Positions 3,955 to 25,774 of a stretch of DNA of 42,810 nucleotides are shown one piece after another. The stretch covers positions 3,438-46,247 of the forward strand of contig QHWT01000065.1 of NCBI GenBank assembly GCA_003222675.1. Direction: 5' to 3'. A model generated the notes under the pieces. That model had not been told where the DNA came from, searched no databases, and saw only the letters and a program-made list of their open reading frames with translations. The stretch's first letter is position 1, and every line of letters begins with the position of its first letter. The translations under genes were made by a program, and so were the position numbers. This DNA comes from Acidobacteriota bacterium (GTDB lineage Bacteria; Acidobacteriota; Vicinamibacteria; Vicinamibacterales; 2-12-FULL-66-21).

Positions 3955-4083
3955 CGTGGAAGGTAACCTGCTGGAACCGCAGGAATTGCGGACCGATCCT
4001 AGCAGGACAGGGAGTGGCGATCAAGAGGCGAAAGGGAAACAATTGGACGAAGCGCACAAAAGCACGGTAGTCCTTCACTCAGA

Positions 4084-4128
4084 ACTCAGTCATTCATGTC
4101 GCCGATGCGGCGACATGAATGACTGAGT
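4084..4128. terminator. Perfect 21-bp stem with 3-nt loop after the TPR gene
   Basis: Bases 4084-4104 are exactly complementary to 4108-4128, leaving the loop ATG. The hairpin starts one base after the TAA stop of the minus-strand TPR gene and lies upstream of mrfA. No T-run follows on either strand, so it is not a classical intrinsic terminator; it could block exonucleases or be a mobile palindromic repeat. Confidence 0.6.
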
Positions 4129-4129
4129 A

Positions 4130-5344
4130 TTACTGGATTGTTTTTGAATCAAGCTTCTGGCGGGTCACCTCGCGGCGCGACAGTACTGACGCCGGGGACC
4201 CGCTGGATGCCTCGCGGTGAAGGCGCTCGAATTCGGCGAGCGCCTTCCCTTGTTCCTGGACGTGCCCGAGCGCCCGGTGAGCCTGGGCGAGCTGGTAGTA
4301 GGTGACCTCGTTGGATGCGTTCACCGAAAGCGCTCGCTGCAACACAGGCAGCGCGAGCTCGGGCTTCCCTAGCCCAATGAGCGTCCGCCCGAGACCGACG
4401 AGCGCGTCCTCGAATTGCGCGTCGTGCTCGAGCGCGCGCTCGAAGAACGCGCGCGCCTGGTCGAGTTCGCCTGCCTCCCGGTGCAGTTCTGCGATTTCGT
4501 ACGCCGCATTGGCGTTGCCGGGATCGATCTCCAGCTCCGCCTCGAACTCCTTCAGCGCCTCCGCGCTCGACGTGGGATCGCCCGTGGTCTCGTGCGCACG
4601 CGTCAGGTAGACGCGGCCCAGACGAAAGTGCACGCCGGGCCGGCGCGGCTCGAGCCCGAGGACCGCGCGGTACTCTTTCACCGCGCCGTCGAGTCCGCCC
4701 TGGCTCTCGTTCACCTCACCCGCCGTCAGGTGCATCCACACCGACTCGGGCGCAATCTCCGACAGCTTCTGCATCGTCACATACGCAAAGTTCGCGTAGA
4801 GCCGACTCGCGTGATACAGGACCTCCGGATCGTCGGGATACAGGCGTTCGAGTTCCAACGCGACTTCGACCGCCTTCTGATCTCGTCCGAGACCCATGTA
4901 AGCGCGCTGCAGCTGCAGACCCGCCATGCGCTTCAGCCGAGCATCAGACGATCGGCGGAAACCGCGCTCGAGGCCGTCCAATGCTTCCTTGTACTCACCT
5001 AATTCCGACAGCGACATCGCGAGAAGGATGTCCGTGTTGGGCAGCGATGGTTTGAGTTTCAGCGCCTGCCGCAACGCTGGCACTGCCTGCTCGAACTTTC
5101 CCTCCTGGAAGTAGACGAGCCCAAGACGGCCGTGCACTTCGGCGACCGACTGATCGGCCGCGCGGAGTTGCTCGTAAATTTTGACGGCGTCCTCGTAACG
5201 CCCATCGGCCAACGCGTGCTCCGCTTCCTGGAAGCGGCGTTGAAATGCGGCCGCGTCTCCGGACTGCGCTGAGGCCGACAATGGCACGAGGCACACGAAC
5301 ACCAGCAGCGCCGTGGCGATTGCCTCGACACGCGCGATCAGCAT
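4130..5344 (-). CDS. Secreted tetratricopeptide-repeat protein
   Basis: A 404-residue protein. The start is the ATG giving MLIARVEAIATALLVFVCLV and ending in SASAQ, a standard Sec signal peptide. A longer in-frame extension runs into the TonB gene and is rejected. A GGAGG-like stretch lies upstream. After the signal there are about nine TPR-type helical pairs with typical spacing, for example DGRYEDAVKIYEQLRAADQS and EGKFEQAVPALRQALKLKPS, then GDPTSSAEALKEFEAELEID and ELDQARAFFERALEHD. TPRs bind other proteins; the partner is unknown. It begins 23 bp after the TonB receptor stop, so the two are likely co-transcribed and may act together at the envelope. Confidence 0.87.
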   Translation of the reverse strand: MLIARVEAIATALLVFVCLVPLSASAQSGDAAAFQRRFQEAEHALADGRYEDAVKIYEQLRAADQSVAEVHGRLGLVYFQEGKFEQAVPALRQALKLKPSLPNTDILLAMSLSELGEYKEALDGLERGFRRSSDARLKRMAGLQLQRAYMGLGRDQKAVEVALELERLYPDDPEVLYHASRLYANFAYVTMQKLSEIAPESVWMHLTAGEVNESQGGLDGAVKEYRAVLGLEPRRPGVHFRLGRVYLTRAHETTGDPTSSAEALKEFEAELEIDPGNANAAYEIAELHREAGELDQARAFFERALEHDAQFEDALVGLGRTLIGLGKPELALPVLQRALSVNASNEVTYYQLAQAHRALGHVQEQGKALAEFERLHREASSGSPASVLSRREVTRQKLDSKTIQ

Positions 5345-5367
5345 CCATGTACCTCGGGCGGGCCTCC

Positions 5368-8300
5368 TCAGAAGATGAATTTCAGTCCTATCTGGTTGAT
5401 GCGTCCGGGGTGAGCGCCGAGAATCTGGCCGAAACGCCGGTCCGCCACGTTGACCACCGGTGCGTTGAACTGCGTGTGATTGAAGGCATTGAACGACTCG
5501 AACCGGAACTGCACGCGCATCGCGCCCGGTAACTCGATGTTCTTGAACAGCGCCAGGTCCCAGTTGTTGATGCCGGGCCCGCGCAGTGTGTTGCGGCCTA
5601 CGGTGCCAAACCGGCCCGGCGCCGGCTGCGCAAACGCAGACGTGTTGAACCATTGACTGATGGTCGGATTGAACCCGCTGGGATTCGGATCCCCAACGAG
5701 ATCCGCACGGTTGGTACCGAAGCTGTCGTTGAGGCCGCCCGCGTCAGCCGCGGTGATCGTGATCGGAAATCCGCGCTGGAACGTGGCGATGCCGTTGACC
5801 TGCCATCCGCCGACGACCGCGTTCTTCACGCCCGTCGCGCCGCTGACGAATTTCTCGCCGCGGCCGAATGGCAGATTGTAGACAAAGCTCGAGACGAGGC
5901 GGTGATCGACGTCGAAGTCGGACCGTCCACGATCGAGCTCGGGGTTATTGTTGTTCAAGAGGCCCTGCCAGCCGTTGTAGGCCGAGGCGCCGATGCCTGC
6001 GGCCGCCGACTTGCTGTCGACGCTCCGCGCCCAGGTGTAGACCACCGTCGCGACGAGCGAGCTGGTGTGTCGTTCCAGCTTCGTGTTCAACGAGTGATAG
6101 TGCGAGTCGCCGGAGAAGTCGCTGTCGATATACACCACGAAATTCGGGAACGGTTTCCTTGCATCGACCGGAAGAGGGTTGGCCGGGTCGTAGGGCAGCG
6201 CCTGCGCGATGTTCCTGCGCATAAGGAGGTTCGTTCCCCTGCTGCCGATGTAATTGACCTCGGCGATCGTGTTCGTCCACACCTGCCGCTGCATACCCAC
6301 TGACCACTGCTGAACGTATGGATTCCTCGGGTCCGGCGACATGCTCACGGCGAGGAACGTATTGGCCGCCGGCGTGGCCGGGCCGAGGTTGGCAAAGCTC
6401 GGAAACAGATCGTTGGTCGTCTGCAGCGCCGCAGTCTGCCCGACGCTCTGGATGTAGTTACCGCGACTGACGTAGGGATAGATGTCCGCTGCGCCGTCGA
6501 TCTCGCGCCCCTCGAAGGAGTCCCAGAAAAACCCGTAGCCGCCGCGTACGACCATCTTGTCATCACCGGCTGGACGGAACGCGAAGCCGACACGTGGTGC
6601 AAAGACGTTCTTCGACGCGTCCTTGGGATTCCGCCTCCCGGCGAACCGGTAGTAGCTCGAGTCGCCGACGATGCCCTTGTCGACGAGCGTCTTGTCGGCC
6701 ACCAGCAGTCCACCGCGAGGATTGGACAGATCGCGCCATCCCATGCGATCGTTCGACTCATAGGGAATGGTTCGGTAGTCGTAGCGCAGCCCCAGGTTGA
6801 CGGTTAACCGCGAGCTGACCTTCCAGTCGTCCTGAACGTACGGCGCAAAGTACTTGAAGTTGAACTGGCGCGGGTTCCCGGGCTTCCCCTCGACGCTGAA
6901 GCCTGCCGGCTGGAAGACGCTCGCGCCCGAGTAGTATCCGAGCAGCATGTCGGCAACCGCATTCCCGGTGAAGAACCCGCTGAACGTGAACTGACCGAGA
7001 AAATCGTTTGCGAGGTCTCGCTGCAGCGACCAACTGCGGTAGTTCGCGCCGAAATTCAACGTGTGCCGGCCGTTGATCCAGGTGGTGGTGTTGCTCAGGT
7101 CCCACATCGGCTGGTAGCTCGCCTGGAAGTCGTTCACCGCGCTTCCAGCGCCCGCCAGACCCGTACCGGTGCCGCCGAATCCGAGCGCGGGGTACGACCG
7201 CTGCTCGTCAGTGAGGTTGTCGAACACACCGGTGAGTCCTGCGGCCTGGACGTCGGCCAGCGGCGCGGTGAATCCATTCTGGTTCGCGGTCGCGCCGATG
7301 TACCCCACGCGGAACTGGTTCACGAGCGTCGCACTGATCGGCATCGAATGCGAGACCTGCCAGTTGTGCGTCTTCTGAACGAAAAAGATGTCACCGAGCT
7401 CGTTGACGGTGCCCAAGTTCGTGTTGGTCCAGTTGGTTTGTGTATAGCGGCCGAACACTGTTCCCGCGCGCGCACCGAGCTGCTGGTCGACGCGAATCGT
7501 GAGCTGGTCCGTGTTCGTCGGGAGATCCCGTGTCCGGATGTAATTGCCCTGCGACACGTTTGCGTTTGGCGCGGGCCAGTACCCCTTCGCGAGGGCCAGG
7601 TTCGCAAGGCGCGAATAGCGGCTCCGCGGAATGGTGTTGTTCGGGAAGGGCTGCCCAGTCACCGGATCGATGATTGTGGTGCTGAACTGACCCCCGAGCT
7701 CCGAGGGTAACGGCACGTTCAGGAAGTCCTGCTGTCCGACGGTCCGCCGCAGCCCTTCGTAGTTCACGAGGAAGAACGTCTTGTTGCGCCCGTTATACAT
7801 TCCAGGGAGCAGCACCGGGCCACCGACGACGAACCCGAACTGCTTCTGATCCAGCTTTCCTTTCGTCACCTCGAAGAAGTTCTTCGCATCGAGCTTGTCG
7901 TTGCGCAGGAACCCGAAACCGGTTCCGTGCAACTGGTTCGTACCGGTCTTGCTGACGATGTTGATCTGATTGGCGCTGAATCCATATTCGGCGGAGTAGG
8001 TCGCCGTCTGCTCCTTGAACTCCTGAATAGCATCGACGGAGAGGATGGCCGCGGGCGTCCCCAGCGCAGTGTCAGTGTTCGAGGTTCCGTCGAGCAGGTA
8101 GTTGTTCGACGTTGGCCGCGATCCGTTGATGCTGATCGCATTCCCCGCGCCTTTCCGCATATCCCCCTGCTCGCCGTTGGTCTCGACGGCGCCGTTGCCG
8201 AGGAACAGCAACTGCAGGAAGTTGCGGCCGTTGAGCGGGAGCTCCGTCACCTGCCGTTCGGTGACGACCTGGCCGATGCTTGCGGTCTCGGTGTCGAGTG

Positions 8301-8676
8301 CGATGGCACGCCCAGTCACCTGGACGGTCTCCGACATCGCACCAACCTCCAGAATCAGGTCGACGCGCAGCACCTGATCCACCTTCAGTTCGTTGGTGGC
8401 CGACGCGGCGAGCTTGAACCCTTCCTTCTCCGCCGTGACGAGGTACACGCCGACGGGAAGTAGCGGAACGGAGTACGACCCCTTGTCGCTGGTGGTCGTC
8501 TCACGCGCGAGTCCAGTGAGCTCGCTCGTGACTTTGATTCTGGCGCCCGCGAGCGCCGCGCCCGTCGCGTCGCTGATGGTGCCGGTGATCTGGCCGGTGG
8601 CTGTCTGGGCCCAGGATGTACCCGCTGTACCGAGTGCCGCCGCCAGCACCAGTGCGGACATTGACCGTGTTCTCAT
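5368..8676 (-). CDS. TonB-dependent receptor with N-terminal carboxypeptidase-regulatory domain (Oar-like)
   Basis: An 1102-residue outer-membrane protein. Residues 1-24 form a signal peptide ending SWAQ. An Ig-like regulatory domain follows (GQITGTISDATGAALAGARI...). Then comes a plug-like region (VTGRAIALDTETASIGQVV, ELPLNGRNFLQLL, SINGSRPTSNNYLLDG) and a long beta-barrel ending in LKFIF; a C-terminal Phe is the usual barrel signature. Acidobacteria carry many receptors of this type, thought to import plant or microbial polymers or siderophores; the substrate here cannot be read. GGAGAG lies 7 nt before the ATG, and a good promoter lies about 50 nt upstream. It heads a two-gene operon with the TPR protein. 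Confidence 0.93.
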   Translation of the reverse strand: MRTRSMSALVLAAALGTAGTSWAQTATGQITGTISDATGAALAGARIKVTSELTGLARETTTSDKGSYSVPLLPVGVYLVTAEKEGFKLAASATNELKVDQVLRVDLILEVGAMSETVQVTGRAIALDTETASIGQVVTERQVTELPLNGRNFLQLLFLGNGAVETNGEQGDMRKGAGNAISINGSRPTSNNYLLDGTSNTDTALGTPAAILSVDAIQEFKEQTATYSAEYGFSANQINIVSKTGTNQLHGTGFGFLRNDKLDAKNFFEVTKGKLDQKQFGFVVGGPVLLPGMYNGRNKTFFLVNYEGLRRTVGQQDFLNVPLPSELGGQFSTTIIDPVTGQPFPNNTIPRSRYSRLANLALAKGYWPAPNANVSQGNYIRTRDLPTNTDQLTIRVDQQLGARAGTVFGRYTQTNWTNTNLGTVNELGDIFFVQKTHNWQVSHSMPISATLVNQFRVGYIGATANQNGFTAPLADVQAAGLTGVFDNLTDEQRSYPALGFGGTGTGLAGAGSAVNDFQASYQPMWDLSNTTTWINGRHTLNFGANYRSWSLQRDLANDFLGQFTFSGFFTGNAVADMLLGYYSGASVFQPAGFSVEGKPGNPRQFNFKYFAPYVQDDWKVSSRLTVNLGLRYDYRTIPYESNDRMGWRDLSNPRGGLLVADKTLVDKGIVGDSSYYRFAGRRNPKDASKNVFAPRVGFAFRPAGDDKMVVRGGYGFFWDSFEGREIDGAADIYPYVSRGNYIQSVGQTAALQTTNDLFPSFANLGPATPAANTFLAVSMSPDPRNPYVQQWSVGMQRQVWTNTIAEVNYIGSRGTNLLMRRNIAQALPYDPANPLPVDARKPFPNFVVYIDSDFSGDSHYHSLNTKLERHTSSLVATVVYTWARSVDSKSAAAGIGASAYNGWQGLLNNNNPELDRGRSDFDVDHRLVSSFVYNLPFGRGEKFVSGATGVKNAVVGGWQVNGIATFQRGFPITITAADAGGLNDSFGTNRADLVGDPNPSGFNPTISQWFNTSAFAQPAPGRFGTVGRNTLRGPGINNWDLALFKNIELPGAMRVQFRFESFNAFNHTQFNAPVVNVADRRFGQILGAHPGRINQIGLKFIF

Positions 8677-8722
8677 CGTGACTCTCCAGTTCGAAGGTCG
8701 CTCCGAGACTTAGCTCGGCCGG

Positions 8723-8751
8723 ATTCTGGACTCAGTCTGCGCGGTGGTCAA
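8723..8751 (-). promoter_or_regulatory. Predicted sigma-70-type promoter of the TonB-TPR operon
   Basis: On the minus strand TTGACC (8751-8746) and CAGAAT (8728-8723) are separated by exactly 17 bases. They match the consensus at 5/6 and 4/6 positions. Transcription would start near 8716, leaving a ~40-nt leader that contains the GGAGAG ribosome site. Confidence 0.5.
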
Positions 8752-8911
8752 TGTAGAAATGGAAGGGGTGTTACTTCTCGCAGTGCGAAACTCAACCGCA
8801 CGGAAGCAGGCCGCTCGGATCGCGCGTATTCACGCGTGTTCAGGGGTGCTTGTCGGGAATCCTGACCGTGGGACCGTTTCAGGCATCAATCGAACAAACA
8901 TCGACGCGATA

Positions 8912-10231
8912 TCAAAGCGTGATATCGGCGGACTTGCCGAGTTTTTCGTGCGCGAAGCGCGCGACGAGGCCGCTCAAGCCGATCAGTCCGACCAGATTCG
9001 GAAAGACCTGCAGCGCGTTCATCAGGTCGCCCCAGGCCCAGACGACCTCCACCTTCGTGACCGCGCCGAACGGAATCAGCAGGCAGTAGATCCACCGGTA
9101 CGGAAGCGTCACCGTCCGGCCCAGAATGTATTCGAAGAACTGTTCTCCGTAATACGCCCATCCGATCAGCGTCGTATAGCCGAAGAGGAATACACAGAAC
9201 GCGACAATCCAGCCGCCCACGGTCGGCATCACGGTATTGAAGCCTGCCGCGACTGCGGCGCTGCTCGTGAGGCCCGACTGCCAGACGCCTGTGAGCAAGA
9301 TTGTCATCGCGCTGATCGTGGAGGTCACGAACGACACGGTGAACACTTCGATCACCGCGTTCAACCCCTGTTGCACGGGCTGCGAGCTCTGCGCCGTGCC
9401 GTAGGCGACCGCGGCGGTGCCGTAGCCCGCCTCGTTCGCGTAGATGCCCCGCGCGATTCCATACCGCATCGCGATCAACATTCCGAGCGTTCCGCCCGCC
9501 GCGGCCTGCATCGAAAATGCCTGTGCGACGATGGAAGCGAACACGCCGGGAATGCGCGCGGCATTGAACAGAATGACGATGAGGCCGCCAACGAGATACA
9601 GCCCGACCTTGAGCGGCGACAACTTTTCAGCCGCGCGGCCGATGGACTCGATGCCGCCGATGATTACCAGCCACGTGAGCACGGCGACGAGGACGCCGAC
9701 CGCGATCTTCGGAATGCCGAAGACAGAATTGATGACCAGAGCGATCGAATTCGGCTGCGTAAACGGCGTGGTCGTCAGAGCGGCCACCGCAGCGACGAGC
9801 GCAAAGAGCCAGGCGAGAAACGGCGACTTCATTCCGTCGCGCAGGTAATACATCGGCCCCGACAGCACCGACGTTCCACGCACCTCGCGGAAGCTGAGAC
9901 CGAGCGTCGCTTCCGCGAATTTGATCGCCATCGCGACGAACCCGTAGATCCAGATCCAGAAGAGCGCGCCCGGCCCGCCGGACACGATTGCCGTCGCCAC
10001 GCCGGCGATGTTGCCCGTGCCGATCGAGGCGGCCAGCGCCGTCATGAACGCCTGGAACGGCGTCAGCGCGCCGGTCGTCCCCGTTCCCCCCCGCACGAAT
10101 GCGGTCCGCCACGCCTCGACGAATCGCCGGATCTGCACGACCCCGGTGCGCACGGTCAGCCACAAACCGGCGCCGAGCAGCACGCCAATGACCCAGGGCA
10201 TGAAGAGTCGATCGGCGAGGGCCTGAATCAT
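8912..10231 (-). CDS. Alanine/glycine:sodium symporter (AGCS family)
   Basis: A 439-residue inner-membrane carrier with about ten hydrophobic segments. The family hallmark is clear: GTGNIAGVATAIVSGGPGAL near residues 70-90, followed by LFWIWIYGFVAMAIKFAEATL. Further family-typical pieces are RYGIARGIYANEAGYGTAA and the late TTLIGWAYYGEQFFEYILG. AGCS proteins import alanine or glycine with sodium or protons; the substrate here is not resolved. No Shine-Dalgarno is present. TACAAT (10244-10239) ends 7 nt before the ATG, and a repeat element fills the region immediately upstream, so transcription may begin at the start codon. Confidence 0.93.
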   Translation of the reverse strand: MIQALADRLFMPWVIGVLLGAGLWLTVRTGVVQIRRFVEAWRTAFVRGGTGTTGALTPFQAFMTALAASIGTGNIAGVATAIVSGGPGALFWIWIYGFVAMAIKFAEATLGLSFREVRGTSVLSGPMYYLRDGMKSPFLAWLFALVAAVAALTTTPFTQPNSIALVINSVFGIPKIAVGVLVAVLTWLVIIGGIESIGRAAEKLSPLKVGLYLVGGLIVILFNAARIPGVFASIVAQAFSMQAAAGGTLGMLIAMRYGIARGIYANEAGYGTAAVAYGTAQSSQPVQQGLNAVIEVFTVSFVTSTISAMTILLTGVWQSGLTSSAAVAAGFNTVMPTVGGWIVAFCVFLFGYTTLIGWAYYGEQFFEYILGRTVTLPYRWIYCLLIPFGAVTKVEVVWAWGDLMNALQVFPNLVGLIGLSGLVARFAHEKLGKSADITL

Positions 10232-10248
10232 GGGGAAAATTGTATGTG

Positions 10249-10332
10249 GATTGGGTAATTGGGTGATTGGGTGATTGCGTGATTTGGTGATTCAGTCACC
10301 AATTCCCTGAATCGCCAATTCACCCGAATCAC
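10249..10332. repeat. GTGATTGG-word repeat between the SDR and symporter genes
   Basis: Five imperfect copies of GGGTGATT/TTGGTGATT are followed by their complement (CACCAATT...GCCAATTCACCC). The element abuts the stop codon of the upstream SDR gene and ends near the symporter's -10-like box. The same words recur at 24352-24482, defining a small dispersed family. Confidence 0.65.
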
Positions 10333-11108: not shown

Positions 11109-11295
11109 TTTTCGTTGGGACGCTGATCTCAACGAGGAGAGTACGCTTGTTTACGGACGGCTTCACGCCAAGTCCGCCGAGGTGGCGGAGACAACACTTT
11201 GTTTATTGTTCTCTGCAATCTCGGCGCGCTCCGCGTGAGATCGTCCGTGACACGTGAGCGTTGTCCGACGCTCGGCGGGTCGGCGGTGCGCCATT
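11109..11295. other. Intergenic region upstream of the SDR gene
   Basis: 187 bp separating the SDR start from the DUF547 stop on the same strand. It should hold the SDR promoter. No convincing -35/-10 pair, hairpin or small gene was seen. Confidence 0.5.
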
Positions 11296-12138: not shown

Positions 12139-12148
12139 GGCTTACAGA

Positions 12149-12976
12149 TTACATAGGCGCGACGAGAAAGTCATGGAGCGCTTGCGCGAACTCGTTCGGG
12201 CGCTCGACGTTCGCGAGGTGCGCCGCCCCCGGGATGATCGTCAACCGCGATCGCGGCATCTTCGCCTGCATGCGTTCGGCTTCAGCGACAGGCGTCACCT
12301 GGTCGTGCTCGCCGACGATGACGATCGTGGGACACGACATGCGCGGGAGATCCGGGGTCGAGTCCGGACGCTCCATCATTGCTGCAAGGGCGCTATCCAT
12401 CGCATCGGGTGGAACGTCTTCGATCATCCGCCGGACGCCGGCCACGAGATCCGTGTCGGCATCCGGTGAAAGCAGTTTCGGCAACATCTGATCGGCAATC
12501 GCGGCAGGACCGTGCGCCGCCAGCAGCTCGCGCATCTGCGCGCGCGCCGCACGGCCGTCAGGTGAATCGGCGCCCGGACGCGTATCGGCCAGGATGATGC
12601 CCGTAAAGCGTTCGGGTGCGAGCCGGTAGAGCGCGAACGTCACGTAGCCGCCCATCGACAATCCGCCGATGATGGCCTGATCAATCTCGAGTCGATCGAG
12701 CAGACGCACGATGCCGCGCGCGTAGTCGACCATCGTGACTCTTTGCCCTGAAGGCGGCGACGGGGAGTTGTGGGAGATCCTGTGGCCGCCATCTTCAGGT
12801 GGAAGTGACGGCGCGAGTCCGCTCAACTCGGGTGCAATGAAACGCCAGCCGTCAGGCACGCGCGCGAGCTGCGGCCGCCACATCTCCGCGCTGAGCGGAA
12901 ATGCATGGATCAGCACCACGGGCCAGCCCGCGCCCGCCGCGAGATATCGCATTCCATCAATGACGTGTTCGCGCAT
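12149..12976 (-). CDS. Alpha/beta-fold hydrolase
   Basis: A 275-residue cytoplasmic hydrolase. The triad is visible: nucleophile Ser in GGLSMGGY, Asp in VGEHDQVTP, His in GAAHLANVERP. HAFPLSAEMW supplies the oxyanion-hole region. Closest in look to 3-oxoadipate enol-lactonase/haloperoxidase-like members, but no substrate can be assigned. A proline/serine-rich insertion (GHRISHNSPSPPSGQRV) sits after LAPSLPPED and is unusual for the fold. The start is the ATG giving MREHVIDGMRY. TACGAT ends 5 nt upstream of it and there is no Shine-Dalgarno. It lies divergent from the heme membrane gene. Confidence 0.88.
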   Translation of the reverse strand: MREHVIDGMRYLAAGAGWPVVLIHAFPLSAEMWRPQLARVPDGWRFIAPELSGLAPSLPPEDGGHRISHNSPSPPSGQRVTMVDYARGIVRLLDRLEIDQAIIGGLSMGGYVTFALYRLAPERFTGIILADTRPGADSPDGRAARAQMRELLAAHGPAAIADQMLPKLLSPDADTDLVAGVRRMIEDVPPDAMDSALAAMMERPDSTPDLPRMSCPTIVIVGEHDQVTPVAEAERMQAKMPRSRLTIIPGAAHLANVERPNEFAQALHDFLVAPM

Positions 12977-13149
12977 CTGCCATCGTAACCGGGATGCGCC
13001 CGCCTTCGCCCGGCGCGCAACTCGAGCGGAGCGCTTCGGCGAGGTCTCGCCGGAGCCCGCGCACAGATCGCGCAAACGGCGCGGACAAGGCCCGCCTTTT
13101 GCGGCGAGGCGGTGAGGCGCGAATCCGCGATGCGGTACACTCCGCGTCA

Positions 13150-13786: not shown

Positions 13787-14554
13787 TTACCTTCGGACGA
13801 GCCGTATCTCGAACAGGCGCGGCCACCATTTGCCGGTGACGAACAGCCGATTGCCAGCCTCGTCGTACGCGATGCCGTTCAGGACGTCGGCGCCGCCGCG
13901 CTCCATCGGTGACAGCAGCCCCGAGAGATCGATCCAGGCGGTGACGCGGCCGTCTTTCAGCGAGATGCGCGCAACGCGATCCGTCTGCCAGACGTTCGCG
14001 AGGATCTCGCCGCGAACGTACTCCAGCTCGTTCAAGCTCTCGACCGGGCCGTTTTGATCGTGGACGGGGAGGCGACCGGTCTCCTGCAGGGTCGTGGGAT
14101 CGAGAAAACGCAGCGACGAGGATCCGTCGCTCATGATGAGGCGCGTACCGTCGTGCGTCAGCCCCCAGCCTTCGCCGCGGTACGCGAACGTCTTGGTCTG
14201 CTGGAACGTCATCATGTCATAGACGAACCCGATCTCGCTTTGCCACGTGAGCTCGACGATCGATCCTTTCCACTCGGTGATCCCTTCACCGAAGTACTGG
14301 CGGGGGATCGCGTGCACCTGCAGGACCTCGCCCGTCTTGAGATCAACCTTCCGGACGCCCGACTGGCCATTCATTCCGGTGCCTTCATACAGGAATCCGT
14401 TGCGATAGATGAGTCCCTGGGTGAACGCGCGGCGATCGTGCGGATACGACTGGATGACGCGGTAGCTGTAAGTGGGCGGGGTGCCGCCCGAACGTTGCGC
14501 CGGAATGAAGCCGATGGTGCTCATCAGGACGATCGTGCCGAGCCCGAATCGCAT
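13787..14554 (-). CDS. Glutaminyl-peptide cyclotransferase (plant/bacterial beta-propeller type)
   Basis: A 255-residue secreted enzyme that would convert N-terminal glutamine of peptides to pyroglutamate. Family-specific motifs: YPHDRRAFTQGLIY, LYEGTGMNGQSGVR, YFGEGITEW, ELTWQSEIGFVYD, GEGWGLTHDG, MSDGSSSLRFLDP, LNELEYVRGEILANVWQTD and DVLNGIAYD followed by RLFVTGKWWPRLFE. An N-terminal hydrophobic stretch (MRFGLGTIVLMSTIGFIPAQ) is a likely signal peptide. TATGCT ends 6 nt before the ATG with no Shine-Dalgarno, consistent with a leaderless transcript. Length and motifs fit an intact gene. Confidence 0.92.
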   Translation of the reverse strand: MRFGLGTIVLMSTIGFIPAQRSGGTPPTYSYRVIQSYPHDRRAFTQGLIYRNGFLYEGTGMNGQSGVRKVDLKTGEVLQVHAIPRQYFGEGITEWKGSIVELTWQSEIGFVYDMMTFQQTKTFAYRGEGWGLTHDGTRLIMSDGSSSLRFLDPTTLQETGRLPVHDQNGPVESLNELEYVRGEILANVWQTDRVARISLKDGRVTAWIDLSGLLSPMERGGADVLNGIAYDEAGNRLFVTGKWWPRLFEIRLVRR

Positions 14555-14872
14555 ACAGCTAGCATACCGGACTATGATACCGCTCCCTCCGCGCCTACGT
14601 CGGCGACATGGATTCGCATTACCTGAGTGATGGGCGTTGAGAATCTCAACGATGTGTCGGAGGCAGACAATCCGAAGAGGACCGGGGAGATCGTCTTGCC
14701 GCGCCCCTCACTGCTGGACCACACGCCGGCGCTGCTGCAGAAGATAACGGCGCGGATCGAAAGTAGGCGTCGAGGTTCGACCTGCTGGAGGTCTTCAAGA
14801 GGAACCGGCCGACGCTCTTTCGCCGAGAGTCTGAAGCCGCAAGCCAGCCGTCCGAATCTCGAGGCGCGAAAC
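14555..14872. other. 318-bp region without a confident gene
   Basis: No reading frame here looks like a recognisable protein. A plus-strand frame near 14627-14790 and another giving RFDLLEVFKRNRPTLFRRES near 14775-14835 could be remnants of a decayed gene, but neither is recognised. The region contains the upstream sequence of the cyclase gene and the 3' flank of the next gene. Confidence 0.4.
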
Positions 14873-15589: not shown

Positions 15590-15725
15590 GTCTGGTCTCG
15601 CTTGCCGCCGACAGTCGAGCTCGACGTCCGCGCGGCAATCACACACTGCCTCTCAATTAGGAACCGACGAGGGTCGGTGGCTAGAATCATAGACCGAGAC
15701 CGGCTTCTTTTGACTGGAGGATCCC

Positions 15726-16016: not shown

Positions 16017-16109
16017 GCCGCGTCTTCACCAGTTGCTGAACGCAGCCTTGGTCATTGATCTCGTCTCTTTCAATAACTTCTCAGCCGGCATTCGTCTGGG
16101 GAGCGGTAC
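16017..16109. other. Short gap between convergent genes
   Basis: 93 bp between the small secreted gene and the Asp-box protein gene stop. Nothing recognisable, and no strong terminator hairpin. Confidence 0.4.
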
Positions 16110-19316: not shown

Positions 19317-19435
19317 GGTCCGGAGTTTTTCACCCGGGACTGAAACGTGTCAATCCCGCTCGATGCATGATGCCTGAAGCCCGGAGCTCGAAGCCATACG
19401 CCGCTTCGATCTGGTAGCATGCGAGCGAGTCAGTG

Positions 19436-20572
19436 ATGCTCCGACGCCGCCTTCTCTTTCTCTCGTTTCTCTGGTGGTTGATCGTTGCGCTGCCGCTGTC
19501 CTGCGTGAAGCAGGCGCCGGCTACGGTCACGCCGCCGGCCGCGATACCCGCATCGACGCCGGCGCCAGCCCCGCGAGAAGCCAGGCGTCCTGCGATCCCC
19601 GATCGCCTGAGCGATGCAGAATTCTGGAATCTCATCACCGAGTTTTCTGAACCCAACGGCTTCTTCCGCTCCGATAACCTGCTGTCGAACGAAGTGTGGA
19701 TGCAGTACGTGATTCCGGAGCTCCTCGAGATCGCGACGCCCGGCCGCGTTTACATCGGCGTTGGACCCGAGCAGAACTTCACCTACATCACTGCCGTGAA
19801 GCCATCGATGGCGTTCATCATCGACGTGCGGCGCGGCAATCTGAACCTGCAGCTGATGTACAAGGCGATCTTCGAACTGTCGACCGATCGCGCCGACTTC
19901 GTGTCGCGCCTCTTCTCGCGGCCGCGCCCCGACAGACTCACCCCGCGGTCGACCGCCGCCGACCTCTTCTCGGCGTACTGGCCGACGCAACCGAGCGACG
20001 AGCTCTTTGCGGCGAACTTCGATGCCATCGTCAACCACCTGTCGAAGACTCACGGCTTCACGCTGTCGCCCGACGACATCGAAAACATCAGGAGTGTGTA
20101 CGCGCAGTTCGAGACGGCAGGACCCGCGCTGACCTATTCGATGGGCGGACGTGGCGGGCGCAATTTCCCAACCTATGCGGATCTGATGGTCGCCACCGAC
20201 GAAGGGGGCACGACGCGCAGCTATCTCGCGACCGAGGAGAACTTCGAGTTCATCAGGTCGCTCGAATCGCGGAATCTGCTCGTCCCCATCGTCGGCAATT
20301 TCGCCGGACCGAAGGCCGTCCGCTCCGTCGGCGCCTACGTGCGCGCGCGGAACAGCGTCGTCCAGACGTTCTACCTGTCGAACGTCGAGCAGTATCTGAC
20401 GATGGATGGGATCTGGCTGGACTTCTGCCGCAACGTGGCAACGCTCCCGATGGACGGGACGAGCCGGTTCATCCGCTCGGTGCGCAACACACAGTTCGGT
20501 TTTCCTGGCGGCCTCACGAACCAGCTTGGCGCGATGGCCGAGGAAGTGAAGACGAACAGCTGCGGAATGTGA
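19436..20572 (+). CDS. Lipoprotein of an uncharacterised family (resembles Leptospira LIC_10091)
   Basis: About 378 residues, starting at ATG (a GTG three bases earlier is also possible). The signal peptide ends LPLSC, a lipobox, so the mature protein should be lipid-anchored at the Cys. A Pro/Ala linker follows, then a conserved globular domain: RLSDAEFWNLITEFSEPNG, RVYIGVGPEQNFTYITAVKP, FIIDVRRGNLNLQLMYKAIF, ELSTDRADFVSRLFSRPRP. From memory this matches a family typified by Leptospira LIC_10091, described as methyltransferase-like in fold; catalysis is unproven. The IGVGPEQNFTY / FIIDVRRGN arrangement would fit a nucleotide-binding beta-alpha-beta. The family name is a recollection and should be checked. 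Confidence 0.75.
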   Translation: MLRRRLLFLSFLWWLIVALPLSCVKQAPATVTPPAAIPASTPAPAPREARRPAIPDRLSDAEFWNLITEFSEPNGFFRSDNLLSNEVWMQYVIPELLEIATPGRVYIGVGPEQNFTYITAVKPSMAFIIDVRRGNLNLQLMYKAIFELSTDRADFVSRLFSRPRPDRLTPRSTAADLFSAYWPTQPSDELFAANFDAIVNHLSKTHGFTLSPDDIENIRSVYAQFETAGPALTYSMGGRGGRNFPTYADLMVATDEGGTTRSYLATEENFEFIRSLESRNLLVPIVGNFAGPKAVRSVGAYVRARNSVVQTFYLSNVEQYLTMDGIWLDFCRNVATLPMDGTSRFIRSVRNTQFGFPGGLTNQLGAMAEEVKTNSCGM

Positions 20573-20582
20573 AATGGCCCGG

Positions 20583-20681
20583 AGCGTACGGCCCAGGGCT
20601 CAGGGGTAGCTCACGGATCAAAACGACTCAAGGCTCGTCGCCTCAAGCCAGCATGAGCCCTGAGTCATGAGCCCCGAGCGG
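20583..20681. repeat. CTCAGGGCTCA / ATGAGCCCTGAG repeat between convergent genes
   Basis: GGCCCAGGGCTCAGGGG near the left end is mirrored by CATGAGCCCTGAGTCATGAGCCCC near the right end. A middle segment has GACTCAAGGCTCGTCGCCTCAAGCC. It fills the gap between the lipoprotein and outer-membrane barrel stops and could form a long hairpin serving both genes. Confidence 0.55.
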
Positions 20682-20683
20682 TT

Positions 20684-21298
20684 TCAGAATCTCACGCCCA
20701 CTCCCAAGCGAACCTGATTGACGTTGTACGCGCTGCCGGCGTTCAGCGCGGAGGCGACGGTCCCGCCTGCGAGAATCTTCTTATATCGATATCCGACGTC
20801 GAGCGTCACCGGCCCGCTCTGGACGAGCATACCGCCGCCGGCGCCGAGCATCGGCTCCGTCCGATTGAGAAACGCGAGACCGGCATCGACGATCGCATCC
20901 GCGCGCCCGCTGATGCCGCTGATACTCGGCGTCAGTCGCGCGATTCCCGCCGTGGTCTCGAAGTAGGGCCGTACGACGGAATGCGACGTCATGAGGCGCA
21001 CGCCCGCTTCGCCGTACCACGCGGACACGCGAACGCCGACCGGCGTGTAATCGAGCAGATCGAAGAGGGGCGACTTGATATCGGTCATCCGTCCGCCCTC
21101 GGCGATCATCTGCATGTTCGGTATCAGGCCGACCGCGACGCGGCCGCCAAACGTCGATGCGCTCGTGCTCCCGAAGGTCGAGGATCCAAACGTGAGGCCG
21201 CCGAATCCCTGCACCTCCGTGTTCGCGGTCTGCGCCGAGACGAGCGACGGTAACGCACACGCCGCGATCACCGCGGCGACGATCAACGGTCTTCGCAT
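20684..21298 (-). CDS. Outer-membrane beta-barrel protein
   Basis: A 204-residue protein with a signal peptide ending SLVSAQ. Alternating hydrophobic and polar beta-strand patterns run throughout: FGGRVAVGLIPNMQMIAEGG, VGVRVSAWYGEAGVRLMT, VVRPYFETTAGIARLTP, LGAGGGMLVQSGPVTLDVGY and VNQVRLGVGVRF. The chain ends in Phe, as expected for barrels of this type (OmpA/outer-membrane-protein beta-barrel class, 8 strands). The start is the ATG giving MRRPL, preceded by GGAG; five extra in-frame residues upstream are rejected. Function unknown. Confidence 0.82.
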   Translation of the reverse strand: MRRPLIVAAVIAACALPSLVSAQTANTEVQGFGGLTFGSSTFGSTSASTFGGRVAVGLIPNMQMIAEGGRMTDIKSPLFDLLDYTPVGVRVSAWYGEAGVRLMTSHSVVRPYFETTAGIARLTPSISGISGRADAIVDAGLAFLNRTEPMLGAGGGMLVQSGPVTLDVGYRYKKILAGGTVASALNAGSAYNVNQVRLGVGVRF

Positions 21299-21419
21299 AT
21301 GAGGACACTCCAAGGGTCGATGTCACGGACATGAGCAACCCGAGTACCAGCCATATCCGGCGCAAAACTGGCGCAGATGCCGCGCATTCGAACAAGCGTG
21401 CGATCGTACGCCCTGCAGC

Positions 21420-21482
21420 GAGGACAGCTCATGACTTATGGCTGAGGGTGTATGGCTTATGCCGGCTCAGGGCCTTAAGGCA
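21420..21482. repeat. CTTATGGCTGAGG / TATGGCTTATGCC word repeat
   Basis: A short run of related words (CATGACTTATGGCTGAGG, GTGTATGGCTTATGCC, GGCTCAGGGCC) downstream of the small membrane protein gene. It resembles the element at 20583-20681 in composition. Its role is unknown. Confidence 0.35.
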
Positions 21483-21507
21483 GCTTCAGTCGTGAGCCGC
21501 GCCTCTT

Positions 21508-21882
21508 TCAAGGAAGCGGTCTCATTTCCTGCACTGACACCGCGAGACCGACATGCAGCCAGCGCAGCGGGAATTCTCCGGGGATGTACAGATCGGGCCG
21601 CGTGATTTCGTCGGCGACCTCCACGAGAATCCATCCATCGGAGCGGATGTCTTTCACGGAATAGGTCTGAGGGGGACCGCCGCCGGCCCAGGTGAACGCG
21701 TATCGCCTGCCTTTGACGAGAAACGACGGCGTTGCGAGGTTCACCGCCGTGCCGTCTACGAGACGGACGACGTCCTGCGCATCCGCGCGGACGGAGATCT
21801 CGCGCGATGCGCTGAGGCCGAGCACGAACGCAAGCGCGATCAGGAAAAACCCGAGAGGACCGGAGAGGCGGACGGGCGCCAT
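21508..21882 (-). CDS. Small membrane-anchored protein of unknown function
   Basis: A 124-residue protein. The ATG giving MAPVRLSGPLG is preceded by GGAGGAG, a strong ribosome site, so it is preferred over an upstream in-frame start that runs through a low-complexity repeat. One hydrophobic segment (FFLIALAFVLGLSA) is followed by a compact beta-rich domain: VVRLVDGTAVNLATPSFLVK, YAFTWAGGGPPQTYSVKDI, GWILVEVADEITRPDLYIPG. No known family was recognised. It may be periplasmic and membrane-tethered. Confidence 0.72.
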   Translation of the reverse strand: MAPVRLSGPLGFFLIALAFVLGLSASREISVRADAQDVVRLVDGTAVNLATPSFLVKGRRYAFTWAGGGPPQTYSVKDIRSDGWILVEVADEITRPDLYIPGEFPLRWLHVGLAVSVQEMRPLP

Positions 21883-21944
21883 GGGAGCCACTCCTCCAGG
21901 CGCTGGCGACCACAGGATACGAAAAACGGCCACCGAAAGACAGT

Positions 21945-22032
21945 CGCCGCCACAGAAAACACAGAAAACACAGAAAACCACGGAAATACCGGTTCTGTGG
22001 CTGTGGCTGTGTTGTGCTGTGTTGTTCCGGGC
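21945..22032. repeat. ACAGAAAAC tandem with complementary GCTGTG arm
   Basis: Three tandem copies of ACAGAAAAC are followed by a spacer and then CTGTGGCTGTGGCTGTGTTG and GCTGTGTTGTT, which are complementary. The element ends exactly at the stop codon of the MetX-like gene, in the position of a terminator for that minus-strand gene. Confidence 0.55.
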
Positions 22033-23094
22033 CTACCTCTCGGTGGCCGCCAGCAGCGCTCCTAGGTATTCCTTCCACACGGCCGCGAGCGTGTGGGTGC
22101 CGTGGCCGGCGGTGCGATCGCTCAGCGGGATCATGATCGCGCGGCCGTTCGGGACGCGCGTGATCTCTCGCTCGAGGACGCCGATCTCCGGCGGATTGAC
22201 GAGGTCGTCGGCGGAATTGATGGCGACCAGGGGCGCCTTGATCCGCTCGAGGGCGGGCGCCGGATCGTAGTCGCGCGACGACTCGAGCGCATACAGCGTG
22301 TCGTTCGCGTCGTTCGCCCGGATGTAGTTCGCGACGTAGTCGTCGATCTCCTTGTCGCTCTCGGTGAGCGTCGGAGCGCGGCGATAGCGAATCACCGGAT
22401 TACTGCCCACGAGCCACAACATCTGTGCGGCGGTGCGCAGGCTCTGCGGCTCGGTCGTATAGTCTCCGCCCTTCCACTCCGGATCGTGCCTGATCGCATC
22501 GATCGCGATCCGGCGCCACACGCGGTTGCGTCCGGCGATTTGCGATGGCACGCTCGCGAGCGGCATCAGGGCATCCATGAAATCAGGATACTGTTCTCCC
22601 CACATCCAGGTGTGCATGCCGCCCATCGACGTGCCCATCACGAGGCGAAGATGGTTCACACCGAGGCCCTCCGTCACGAGCCGGTGCTCCGCCTCGATCA
22701 TGTCGTGATAGGCGTAGCGCGGAAACTTAGCCCGAAGGCCGTCGCTCGGCTTGCTCGATTGTCCGTGACCGATGTCATCCGGCAGGATGATGAAGTAGCG
22801 CGACGCGTCGAGCAATTGACCCGCCCCAAACAGCTCGCCCGCGAATCCTCGGCCGACGAACTGCGCCCCGCTCCCGCCGGTGCCGTGCATGATCAATACG
22901 GCGTTCCGCACCACACCCTGCGAATCCTTCCGTGGCTGGCCGTACGTGCGGTAGTGGATACGCAGATCCGGGAGCGCTTCGCCCGACGCGAACGGGAAGT
23001 TGCGAATGACATAGTCGCCCTGCGCAGGCTGTGGCGCGTCGGCGGCCGGCGCCTGACACAGCAGGACGGGAAGCAGCAGGGCGGCGGCAGTCAT
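22033..23094 (-). CDS. Secreted MetX-like alpha/beta hydrolase (homoserine acetyltransferase superfamily)
   Basis: A 353-residue protein. A short hydrophobic leader (MTAAALLLPVLLCQAPAADA) suggests export, unusual for a true homoserine O-acetyltransferase, which is cytoplasmic. The superfamily pattern is clear: LIMHGTGGSGAQF, ILPDDIGHGQSSKP, nucleophile in GTSMGGMHTWMWG, Asp in NSADDLVNPPE, His in GHGTHT. The family's usual GPSMGG is replaced by GTSMGG. Substrate unknown; a serine hydrolase or esterase role is more likely than methionine synthesis. The start overlaps the stop of the DUF1801 gene upstream (ATGA), so the two are translationally coupled. Confidence 0.85.
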   Translation of the reverse strand: MTAAALLLPVLLCQAPAADAPQPAQGDYVIRNFPFASGEALPDLRIHYRTYGQPRKDSQGVVRNAVLIMHGTGGSGAQFVGRGFAGELFGAGQLLDASRYFIILPDDIGHGQSSKPSDGLRAKFPRYAYHDMIEAEHRLVTEGLGVNHLRLVMGTSMGGMHTWMWGEQYPDFMDALMPLASVPSQIAGRNRVWRRIAIDAIRHDPEWKGGDYTTEPQSLRTAAQMLWLVGSNPVIRYRRAPTLTESDKEIDDYVANYIRANDANDTLYALESSRDYDPAPALERIKAPLVAINSADDLVNPPEIGVLEREITRVPNGRAIMIPLSDRTAGHGTHTLAAVWKEYLGALLAATER

Positions 23095-23537
23095 TTCCTG
23101 CGGCTCGCCTCGTACACCTCGATGTATTTCTGCATGGGCGTGCTGGCGATCACGTTGGCCACGACGTCGAGCGGCAGATCGTCGAGCTGTTTGAACCGCA
23201 GGCACGACTGGCCCATGTCGAGCTTCTTCCCGCGCTTCTTGAACTCGTCCTCGAGGTACTGCGCCTGCTTCGAATCACCATAAGCTGCCATCAGGTACAG
23301 CGAATAGTGATTCCTTTGCGCGGCGATGCCCGCATAGCACAGCGGCTGGCCGTTGTACGTGTCGGGATATCGCTTCAGCGGGATCTCGTACGTGATGATG
23401 CCCCAGTTGACGGACTCCTCGTATCCCTTCGGCAGGTGCTTCTTGATGACGCTGCGCACCTTCGAGACGACCTCGCGGCGCTCAGGCGGAAGTCCGTCGA
23501 GGTACTCGTTTACCGTTTTGGCTTTGCCTCCGAACAT
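23091..23537 (-). CDS. DUF1801 (YdhG-like) domain protein
   Basis: A 148-residue cytoplasmic protein of the DUF1801 family: VNEYLDGLPPERREVVSKVR, then EESVNWGIITYEIPL, a hydrophobic middle (PLCYAGIAAQRNHYSLYLMA) and FKQLDDLPLDVVANVIAS. Some DUF1801 proteins were proposed to act as frataxin-like iron chaperones, but this is weakly supported. GGGAGG lies upstream of the ATG. It overlaps the MetX-like gene by four bases and is likely the first gene of that operon. Confidence 0.85.
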   Translation of the reverse strand: MFGGKAKTVNEYLDGLPPERREVVSKVRSVIKKHLPKGYEESVNWGIITYEIPLKRYPDTYNGQPLCYAGIAAQRNHYSLYLMAAYGDSKQAQYLEDEFKKRGKKLDMGQSCLRFKQLDDLPLDVVANVIASTPMQKYIEVYEASRRK

Positions 23538-23714
23538 CTCAGCCTCCCGTCACCACAACCGCGACTTGCCACTCGCCGACGCGATGAACCGAGGATCGAA
23601 CCCGCCACTATGAAGACGGTTTCGATCTCTTGTACGTCGGCGGATTCTATATCGGTCGTCCGCCCGCCTCCGCCTGCGAGCAATTCACGCGGGACAACCT
23701 GCTAGAGTATTGGG
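23538..23714. other. Divergent intergenic region
   Basis: 177 bp between the divergent DUF1801 and DUF2277 genes, so it must hold both promoters. An open plus-strand frame (LLYVGGFYIGRPP) runs through it but has no start codon. GGATCGAACCC near 23594 looks like a T-loop on the minus strand but no tRNA folds around it. Confidence 0.4.
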
Positions 23715-23987
23715 ATGTGTCGCAATATCAGGCCTCTCTTCAACTTTGATCCACCCGCCACGGACGAGGAGGTTCGGGCGGCGGCCGTGCAGTTCGTGCG
23801 CAAGATCAGCGGGTTCACCAGGCCCTCGCACGCCAATGCTGATGTATTCGAGCAGGCGGTGAATGAAATCTCTGAGAGTGCCCGCCGGCTCGTGGATGCG
23901 CTGAAGACGTCAGCGCCGCCCCGCGATCGCGAAGAGGTCGCCGAACGCGCACGCGCCCGGGCCGCCGAACGCTTTGGGCCTGCGTGA
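23715..23987 (+). CDS. DUF2277 domain protein
   Basis: A 90-residue protein matching DUF2277 end to end: MCRNIRPLFNFDPPATDEEV, AAAVQFVRKISGF, and the C-terminal APPRDREEVAERARARAAER. Function unknown. The conserved N-terminal MCRNIR fixes the start. TAGAGT ends 6 nt before the ATG and there is no Shine-Dalgarno, so it is probably leaderless. A membrane protein gene on the opposite strand overlaps the last two thirds of this gene. Confidence 0.88.
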   Translation: MCRNIRPLFNFDPPATDEEVRAAAVQFVRKISGFTRPSHANADVFEQAVNEISESARRLVDALKTSAPPRDREEVAERARARAAERFGPA

Positions 23988-24351
23988 TTCTCCATCGCGC
24001 ATCGAGGTCGATGCGCCCGATCTCTCCCCATCCGGCCCTGAACAGCCGGAACGGCCGTCGCCCCAATCTCAATCCTTCAGGACTGACGCGAAGCGCGCTG
24101 CGCTGTTCGGCGGCGGCGATGATCCGGCCGTCAAACACGCCCGTTGCGAGCATGACGAGCGCCGTGAGGATCGTCGGTCGCGCGATCTGGTGCTTGACGT
24201 GCCATCGCTCGAGCGCTTCCGTCGCGAGGACACCCGCAGCGGAGATATCGACCCAGTCGACGCCGTGCGCATGCGGCGCATGGGCAGCTGGCGCGGCCGC
24301 TGCCGGCGCGCGGCGCATGCGACGAACCGTCAGCACCATGCTGCCGATCAT
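23815..24351 (-). CDS. Membrane protein with PH-like region, overlapping DUF2277 antisense
   Basis: A 178-residue frame. Residues ~30-90 look like real protein: VDWVDISAAGVLATEALERW, then TILTALVMLATGVFDGRII (a membrane segment), then EGLRLGRRPFRLFRAGWGEI and RIDLDARWRI, which resembles a bacterial PH domain. From about residue 122 the frame runs antisense to DUF2277 and becomes Arg/Pro/His-rich, unlike a natural C-terminus. Either the gene has lost its true end through truncation or the overlap is genuine. A second start 12 bases in (MVLTVRRM) is possible. Confidence 0.5.
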   Translation of the reverse strand: MIGSMVLTVRRMRRAPAAAAPAAHAPHAHGVDWVDISAAGVLATEALERWHVKHQIARPTILTALVMLATGVFDGRIIAAAEQRSALRVSPEGLRLGRRPFRLFRAGWGEIGRIDLDARWRITQAQSVRRPGRVRVRRPLRDRGAALTSSAHPRAGGHSQRFHSPPARIHQHWRARAW

Positions 24352-24482
24352 CGGGTGATTGGGTAATCGGGTGATTTGGTGATCGGGCATGCGCGATCTA
24401 CCGGCGGCGCTTCAAAAGCACGCGCGGTAGCGCGTGGGAAGCAAAATTACCCAATTACCCAATTACTAAATCACCAAATCAA
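24352..24482. repeat. 131-bp inverted-repeat element, GGGTGATTGGGTAAT words
   Basis: The left arm (24352-24387) has GGGTGATT/GGGTAATC words and GTGATTTGGTGAT. The right arm (24445-24480) has the complement (AATTACCC twice, then AAATCACCAAATC). Between them is a second, inner inverted repeat around GATCTACCG / CGGTAGCGCG. It has the shape of a small non-autonomous palindromic element and shares words with 10249-10332. Confidence 0.65.
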
Positions 24483-24505
24483 GCCTGAGATCGATCAGCG
24501 CGCTG

Positions 24506-24619
24506 GACGCGCAGCCGCGGGTCGGCCGCTTTGGATGGAAAAACCAGCACGCCAGCCTGCTGTCGTTTGCTGCGGACGCATACTTGAACGAAGTCGGCAT
24601 CACGAGCCGTCTAGATGGT
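24506..24619 (+). pseudogene. Relic of a di-heme oxidoreductase
   Basis: The plus-strand frame reads DAQPRVGRFGWKNQHASLLS followed by FAADAYLNEVGITSRL. This is characteristic of an internal segment of di-heme cytochrome c oxidoreductases (DHOR/MauG-like). Nothing upstream or downstream continues the family, and no CxxCH motif is present, so only about 38 codons survive. It stays in frame with the methyltransferase relic that follows. Confidence 0.5.
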
Positions 24620-24780
24620 GTGGCCGATCCTCCCGTCAGGGACATCAGCGACACGGCCCGGTGGGCAGCTGTCTATCGGGCCCGTGAAACGGCGCGGCCG
24701 GATGCGGTGTTCCGCGATCCGTTGGCGCTGCTGGCCGAACGGAAGAAGGTGAACCCGTCGCGTCCCTGGGCGGTGGTCGT
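24620..24780 (+). pseudogene. Truncated N-terminus of a SAM-dependent methyltransferase (PF04072-like)
   Basis: The frame reads VRDISDTARWAAVYRARETA then RPDAVFRDPLALLAERKKVN, matching the opening of the leucine carboxyl methyltransferase-like family (usual pattern SDTARWVAxYRARExxRPDALFRDPFA). It degrades after NPSRPWAVVV and reaches a stop within ~25 bases of the convergent VWFA gene end. About 250 residues including the SAM-binding GxGxG are missing. Confidence 0.6.
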
Positions 24781-25740
24781 TCAGTTGGACCGCGCGGCCA
24801 CGTAGGTTTTTCGCGCGCGCGCGGTGAGGCCGCGGGTCTTCAGGCGCACTTCAAGCCTGTGGCTCTTGCCATCGAGCTTCTCGGGCTCGAAGCCGATCAA
24901 ATACTGGTGGTGCAGTTCGTCCGCGATACGGGCGAACGTGCCGACCAGGTCGTTCGTCCTCGTCAGCTCGAAATACCCGCCACCCGTCGCGCCGGCGATT
25001 TTCGGCAGCCCCGAATCCGGTTTCTGGATCTCGGGTCCGGCGCCGAACCCGCCGAACCCTCCGCCGCGTCCGCCGAAACCGCCGGGACGCCCGGGCCCTC
25101 GTCCGCCGAACTGCTCGCTCGCCAGGCCGATGGCATACACCATCACATCTTCCTGCTCGGCGCGCCGCATCACGTCGTGCAGCGAGACGTTGTTGCCGCT
25201 GCCATTCATCGGGCGGTCGATCCCGTCGGTGAACACGAGCACGACGCGCCGCCCTTCCTGGTGCAGCAGCGCCGTGACGCCGACGTTCAGCGCGTTCCAG
25301 AGCGGCGTCGGACCGGCTTCCTGCAGCTCCGTCCGGAGGATCTGCAGCAGCTCTCCCTTGTCCCCCGTGAACTGCCGCGGGTCCACCTGGATGCGCGCGG
25401 CGAAGCTGCCGACACGGGCCTTGTCTCCCACGATCATGCGTTCCACGAAGGCTTCCGCCGCGCGCTGCACGAGCGCGAAGTTGCGAAACATGCTGCCGCT
25501 GCGATCGAGCAACATCACGACGGTGATCGGCTGCACGTCATTGGCGAACGTGGTGATCGTCTGGCCCTTGCCGTTGTCGAAGACTTCGAATTGATCACGC
25601 CCGAGATCCAGGACGGGCTTTCCTGTTGCATCCGACACCGTCGTGTACACCGCCACGGTATAGGCAGCGCTGCGAAACTGCGGCTGTTCCGGCGACAGCG
25701 CGACCGACAATGCGAGCGCGATGGGCGCGAACGCGCGCAT
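24781..25740 (-). CDS. Secreted acidobacterial-type VWFA domain protein
   Basis: A 319-residue protein with a short signal peptide. Residues ~25-65 (YTVAVYTTVSDATGKPVLDL, DQFEVFDNGKGQTI) form the domain preceding VWFA in the acidobacterial VWFA-related family (TIGR03436 type). The VWFA MIDAS motif is DRSGSM, with TPLWNAL and FTDGIDRP completing the metal site. A Gly/Arg/Phe-rich loop (GRGPGRPGGFGGRGGGFGGF) interrupts the domain. The C-terminus (YLIGFEPEKLDGKSHRLEVR) is also typical. Function unknown; such proteins are found in large numbers in Acidobacteria. A promoter lies so close that the transcript is likely leaderless. Confidence 0.9.
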   Translation of the reverse strand: MRAFAPIALALSVALSPEQPQFRSAAYTVAVYTTVSDATGKPVLDLGRDQFEVFDNGKGQTITTFANDVQPITVVMLLDRSGSMFRNFALVQRAAEAFVERMIVGDKARVGSFAARIQVDPRQFTGDKGELLQILRTELQEAGPTPLWNALNVGVTALLHQEGRRVVLVFTDGIDRPMNGSGNNVSLHDVMRRAEQEDVMVYAIGLASEQFGGRGPGRPGGFGGRGGGFGGFGAGPEIQKPDSGLPKIAGATGGGYFELTRTNDLVGTFARIADELHHQYLIGFEPEKLDGKSHRLEVRLKTRGLTARARKTYVAARSN

Positions 25741-25746
25741 GAAGAA

Positions 25747-25774
25747 ATAATAGCGGGCTTTTGGCTGTTCTCAA
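25747..25774 (-). promoter_or_regulatory. Predicted promoter of the VWFA gene
   Basis: TTGAGA (25774-25769) and TATTAT (25752-25747) are spaced by 16 bases on the minus strand, each 5/6 to consensus. The -10 ends 6 nt before the ATG, so transcription should start at or next to it, giving a leaderless mRNA. Confidence 0.55.

Follow-up and report, generated by a model that had tools for sequence, protein, structure and literature searches.

Between roughly 8 and 10% of genes in an Acidobacteriota genome, and about 12% of its first genes, carry by a crude count a TANNNT hexamer directly ahead of the start codon. These boxes are very probably -10 elements of housekeeping (sigma-70-type) promoters that give rise to leaderless mRNAs. 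This assignment is built on the position of the boxes, their sequence character, their bias toward first genes, their avoidance of Shine-Dalgarno (SD) signals and their conservation in two genes; from these we infer that the box works as the promoter in vivo, where the transcript begins and how the ribosome engages it. A -10 element so placed would start transcription at the start codon or within about 3 nt of it. RNA polymerase would grip mainly the -10 hexamer, often in its extended form (TGN before it) and seldom together with a -35 element, and the resulting mRNA would have neither leader nor SD, so that the ribosome would take the 5'-terminal start codon directly.

The window, a stretch of 42,810 nucleotides from contig QHWT01000065.1 (assembly GCA_003222675.1, order Vicinamibacterales), had been read from its sequence alone as holding seven genes with such a box and no SD, from which widespread leaderless mRNAs were proposed. 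All seven boxes are present, each at the claimed gap before its start codon, and GGAG, GAGG and AGGA are absent from the SD window of all seven genes. Pfam matches agree with the names given to the products: MrfA-type helicase, Na:Ala symporter, alpha/beta hydrolase, ferric-reductase-like transmembrane protein (the heme protein), glutamine cyclotransferase (the glutaminyl cyclase), DUF2277 and VWA. The elements discussed here are as follows.

3960..3965, minus strand: TACCTT, gap 5 to the mrfA ATG; unlikely to be a promoter
3996..4001, minus strand: TAGGAT, likely the true -10 of mrfA, lying 41 nt upstream of its ATG
4019..4024, minus strand: TTGATC, likely the -35 of mrfA, from ortholog alignment
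10239..10244, minus strand: TACAAT box, gap 7 to the ATG (10229-10231) of the Na:Ala symporter gene
12146..12151, minus strand: TAATCT, gap 7 to the ATG (12138) of a DUF547 gene (Pfam), overlapping the hydrolase stop; status uncertain
12982..12987, minus strand: TACGAT box, gap 5 to the ATG (12974-12976) of the alpha/beta hydrolase gene
13136..13141, plus strand: TACACT box, gap 8 to the GTG (13150) of the ferric-reductase-like heme protein gene
14561..14566, minus strand: TATGCT box, gap 6 to the ATG (14552-14554) of the glutaminyl cyclase gene
23703..23708, plus strand: TAGAGT box, gap 6 to the ATG (23715) of the DUF2277 gene; the best-supported putative leaderless promoter
25747..25752, minus strand: TATTAT box, gap 6 to the ATG (25738-25740) of the VWFA gene
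25769..25774, minus strand: TTGAGA, possibly a -35, located 16 bp upstream of the VWFA box, read in the window sequence

Starts were called for 23 window genes, and 6 of these have a box at gap 5-8 (P ~6e-6, which rests on a background of 3.37 per position per 647 genes, or ~2.1% per start over four gap positions, and takes no account of a reader having selected the window). Among the six is the DUF547 gene, which lies outside the original seven; the hydrolase and DUF2277 genes are not among the 23 called with the start used in the sequence-only reading. Between genes, at 10252-10330 and 24355-24485, short repeats of the ATTGGGTGATT type are visible by eye in both orientations, and a similar run lies upstream of mrfA in the ortholog locus L098. 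An open frame of 3,744 codons, with GGAG ahead of its called start, spans 27262-38496 on the minus strand.

The source genome comprises 7.16 Mb in 152 contigs. Genes were called in the window and in 40 stretches of 20 kb, together 842,810 bases or ~12% of the genome (GC 0.647 in the stretches sampled), by a caller that used coding potential only and was blind to upstream motifs, yielding 647 genes with 60 nt upstream. Ahead of these starts TANNNT peaked at gaps 6-9, with counts of 3, 6, 16, 18, 15, 11 and 5 at gaps 4 through 10 against the background of 3.37 per position. With a box defined as TANNNT at gap 5-9 before the start codon, 64 of the 647 genes were boxed, as compared with 24.0 +/- 4.9 (maximum 39) over 1000 rounds of mononucleotide shuffling of each gene's 40-nt upstream stretch. 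A genome-wide count against shuffles had been named as a check on the proposal, and in this sample it gave the enrichment. No peak appeared at 3,762 internal in-frame ATGs, where the profile was flat at 0 to 2.4 per 1000 per position. Among 64 patterns of the form abNNNc, TANNNT exceeded expectation most (66 observed, 17.1 expected, z 11.8), followed by GGNNNA (z 4.5). Shuffles alone would account for ~24 of the 64 boxed genes, so any one box may well be a chance match. An SD core preceded 163/647 genes versus 68/647 at a control position; the 16S gene of this genome runs past the end of contig C50.

Boxes and SD signals were distributed in opposite ways with respect to operon position. A gene was classed as first if its upstream neighbour was divergent, or was co-directional and lay over 100 nt away, and as operon-internal if it lay within 20 nt of that neighbour. 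In the source genome, boxes preceded 50 of 374 first genes versus 5 of 164 operon-internal genes (P 1.5e-4), and SD signals 77 of 374 versus 63 of 164 (P 2.7e-5). Among first genes, an SD accompanied 3 of the 50 boxed starts versus 74 of the 324 unboxed. A second count, in which every start within 5 score units was allowed and boxes were scored over control gap windows, gave an excess of 12.4% for first genes and 0.2% for operon-internal genes. Genes for exported proteins with an SD, as noted from the sequence, do occur in the window (4130-5344, 21508-21882 and 39063-39296 are examples). The contrast drawn between them and boxed genes failed: a crude predictor found signal peptides in 31/126 box-only and 82/329 SD-only genes (P = 1.0).

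In sequence character the boxes resembled extended -10 elements. Over 116 boxes from four genomes, the three free positions favour T-A-A, and TG is favoured at the second and third bases upstream. A TG stood before the box in 28 of 133 boxed versus 66 of 1115 unboxed genes (five genomes). A good -35, counted as 5 or 6 matches to TTGACA, was found in 9/133 boxed and 13/1115 unboxed genes (P 2e-4); at 4 or more matches the difference was not significant (25/133 versus 150/1115, P 0.11). Thus most boxes lack a good -35, as first suggested from the window, and a minority have one. At E <= 0.001 the sigma-70 region 2 family is matched 42 times in the whole source genome, which makes numerous alternative sigma factors likely; the boxes were pooled over sigma factors.

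Start-abutting boxes are not peculiar to the source genome. In fractions that are uncalibrated, start calls being crude and even the positive control, D. deserti plasmid 1, giving only 15/116, the same pipeline found boxed genes in two genomes of the same family (G001, 16/146; G009, 23/176), one of the same order (G136, 13/154), one of the same class (G232, 17/125, called with the coding model of the source genome) and four of other Acidobacteriota classes (G070, 11/145; G105, 11/125; G195, 14/140; G130, 19/156). Peaks were weak in G070 and G105 (ratios 2.5 and 1.7; overall excess 3.3% and 5.4%). The D. deserti plasmid displayed a peak; the negative control, E. coli K-12, had none (7/163 boxed, peak-to-background ratio 0.4). 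In G232 and G009 the size of the excess suggests that roughly one first gene in four would depend on a -10 element beside the start codon. In G130 (stretches L330-L339), first and operon-internal genes were boxed about equally (7/57 versus 8/78), with first genes ahead when all plausible starts were allowed (15/57 versus 8/78).

DUF2277 is the cleanest single case, since a conserved MCR(N/S)I fixes the position of its start. All 9 loci of the family were examined, and a box is present in 8/8 beyond the window, with a gap of 6 in seven of them and of 9 in the other. The nine hexamers read TAGAGT, TACACT, TACACT, TATCGT, TACAAT, TAATCT, TAACGT and TAGAAT at gap 6 and TAGATT at gap 9; the T, A and last T are invariant and the NNN is free, a pattern expected of a -10 element. 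Locus L056 has GGAG alongside the box, and at locus L204 an AGGA falls within the box TAGGAT. A phylum sample (matches in 62/247 genomes, 30 loci fetched, 28 counted, leaving out the window's own locus and L240, whose start was not found) placed these boxes in context. Within the same order, 3 of 5 loci with a found start were boxed, with 1 SD and 1 having neither signal. Within the same class none of 2 was boxed (1 SD, 1 neither), and GAGAAT at gap 6 and CACAAT at gap 5 were present. In other classes of the phylum all 21 sampled loci had an SD and no box. Over the boxed loci of the family (9/9) and the rest of the order (3/5), the gap is exactly 6 in 11 of 12, and of the hexamer nothing but the T, the A and the final T is conserved.

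Named DUF2277 loci, of which 80 were kept from 587 relatives and grouped by record title, broadened this comparison. Firmicutes loci had an SD in 20/21 and no box, and 48 other loci had an SD in 33 and a gap 5-9 box in 2. Two of 11 titled Acidobacteriota loci were boxed, one of them a Luteitalea MAG; of the 9 unboxed, 5 had an SD and 4 neither signal, which makes SD-led translation elsewhere a strong tendency of the sample and no rule. The upstream 45 nt are identical between L247, from another genome of the phylum (G114), and L168, from Granulicella sp. S190. From these comparisons we lean, with some reserve, toward a history in which single genes within the class would have been rewired from SD-led to leaderless and then kept so, with DUF2277 as the example. 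The GAGAAT and CACAAT of the two same-class genomes are possible intermediates of this switch.

For the other boxed genes, several in-frame starts were considered per locus and a gap 5-9 box at any plausible start counted as a hit, so hits are favoured. The hydrolase box was found under this scoring at 8/8 further loci, with variable NNN (9 of 20 fetched loci examined, the closest ones; L136 carries another piece of the L140 gene); at L134 and L135 the hit implies a shorter N-terminus. The VWFA box recurred at 3/15 further loci, including 2 of the 5 closest (16 of 20 fetched examined), and the symporter box at 3/9 further loci having the N-terminus (12/12 examined, L120 and L123 without it). 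The cyclase box recurred at 1/9 (11/11 examined, L069 without the N-terminus), in L064 with the same hexamer and the same gap. The heme protein box, the weakest case retained, was found at 0/2 further loci (3/3 examined). The leaderless-promoter model is almost certain for DUF2277 and the alpha/beta hydrolase, probable for VWFA, the cyclase and the symporter, and possible for the heme protein. At the heme protein ortholog L126, which has no box at its start, a TACGAT 28 nt upstream lies 6 nt before the GTG of a 7-codon frame, the TGA of which overlaps the heme ATG (ATGA). This frame is possibly a leaderless mini-ORF coupled to the heme gene, or chance.

One of the seven genes did not survive comparison with its orthologs. 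TTGATC-17-TANNAT lies 26-41 nt upstream of the mrfA start in 7/8 orthologs, the window's own included and L110 being the exception (8 of 20 fetched loci examined), and a TACCTT-like box at the start was seen in 0/7 further loci. Because this canonical promoter is common to all but one of these orthologs and the box recurs at none of the seven others, the leaderless reading of mrfA was dropped, and mrfA is most likely a leadered gene. Overall, the claim of widespread leaderless mRNAs retains its many start-abutting -10 boxes and its genome-wide enrichment, and loses mrfA and the contrast with exported proteins.

Functionless matches arising by chance in A+T-richer intergenic DNA are one alternative, and they do contribute: shuffled upstream stretches still yield 24/647, and among the seven boxes several show poor conservation. 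As a general account chance is ruled out by the 64 boxed genes against 24.0 +/- 4.9, and with the sharp peak, the z of 11.8 against 4.5, and the conservation of the DUF2277 and hydrolase boxes we accord it very little probability. The box could instead be a translation signal, an A/T-rich ribosome site on transcripts that begin further upstream. It occupies the place of the SD and avoids SD genes, and some operon-internal excess exists, unlike in the source genome, in G001 (5.9%), G232 (7.4%) and G130 (7.7%). A translation signal ought, however, to serve operon-internal genes too, where the source genome has an excess of 0.2%, and the fixed T, A and final T, the NNN leaning toward T-A-A and the TG two bases up resemble a -10 element. 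A ribosome site in place of a promoter was rejected on operon position and on this -10-like pattern, and is very unlikely.

A further account puts the promoters upstream, followed by a short SD-less leader, with the start-proximal box coincidental in several of the seven. It draws on the TTGATC-17-TANNAT of mrfA and on L126, where the TACGAT lies upstream of a boxless heme start, but it leaves the gap 6-9 peak and the conservation in DUF2277 and the hydrolase unexplained; we take it to hold for mrfA, but as a general account it is very unlikely. Promoters with a -10 element abutting the start codon thus stay the preferred reading for the boxes at large.

The leaderless mode has already been predicted in this phylum, and the box is a known kind of signal. 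Among the best-ranked literature matches we found no mapped transcript ends for Acidobacteriota, which is not proof of absence. Mycobacterium tuberculosis is a GC-rich bacterium. Many leaderless transcripts, with mapped starts, are described in the portion consulted of a study of its leaderless transcriptome (PMC3898074), in another phylum. Zheng et al. 2011 (PMC3160421), in the text consulted, define TA-led (leaderless) genes by TANNNT ~12 bp before the start codon and predict leaderless genes in 3/3 Acidobacteria genomes, at a mean of 13.3% (9.7-19.4). Motif, position and phylum are the same as here, and there too the genes are predictions; this genome, the class of the window and an ortholog-by-ortholog case such as DUF2277 were not met in that text. 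For Deinococcus-Thermus, the consulted parts of PMC12340547 describe a -10 motif adjoining open reading frames, tested in D. radiodurans by mutation and reporters; there the mutations proved it to be a promoter. As here, it is a TANNNT ~6-7 bp before the frame, TACACT is common and the -35 is optional. In D. radiodurans, of another phylum, nearly one-third of genes have the motif versus about a tenth here by a cruder count. According to passages seen in two further sources, leaderless transcription is predicted in 21.6% of bacterial species (a prediction cited in PMC9581028), and the class Vicinamibacteria stands at 41% SD, with CACCUCCU (PMC10783764).

One of the seven boxes was most likely wrong, and single boxes need ortholog checks before a gene is taken as leaderless. 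Collectively, our data extend a mode of gene expression predicted in a common soil phylum to a further lineage, in which SD-tuned gene callers may misplace starts. The part that merits specialist attention is the putative change in DUF2277 from an SD to a leaderless start, where the spacing stays almost constant at 6 nt. With its start anchored, DUF2277 is a gene on which a change from SD-led to leaderless expression can be placed on the tree.
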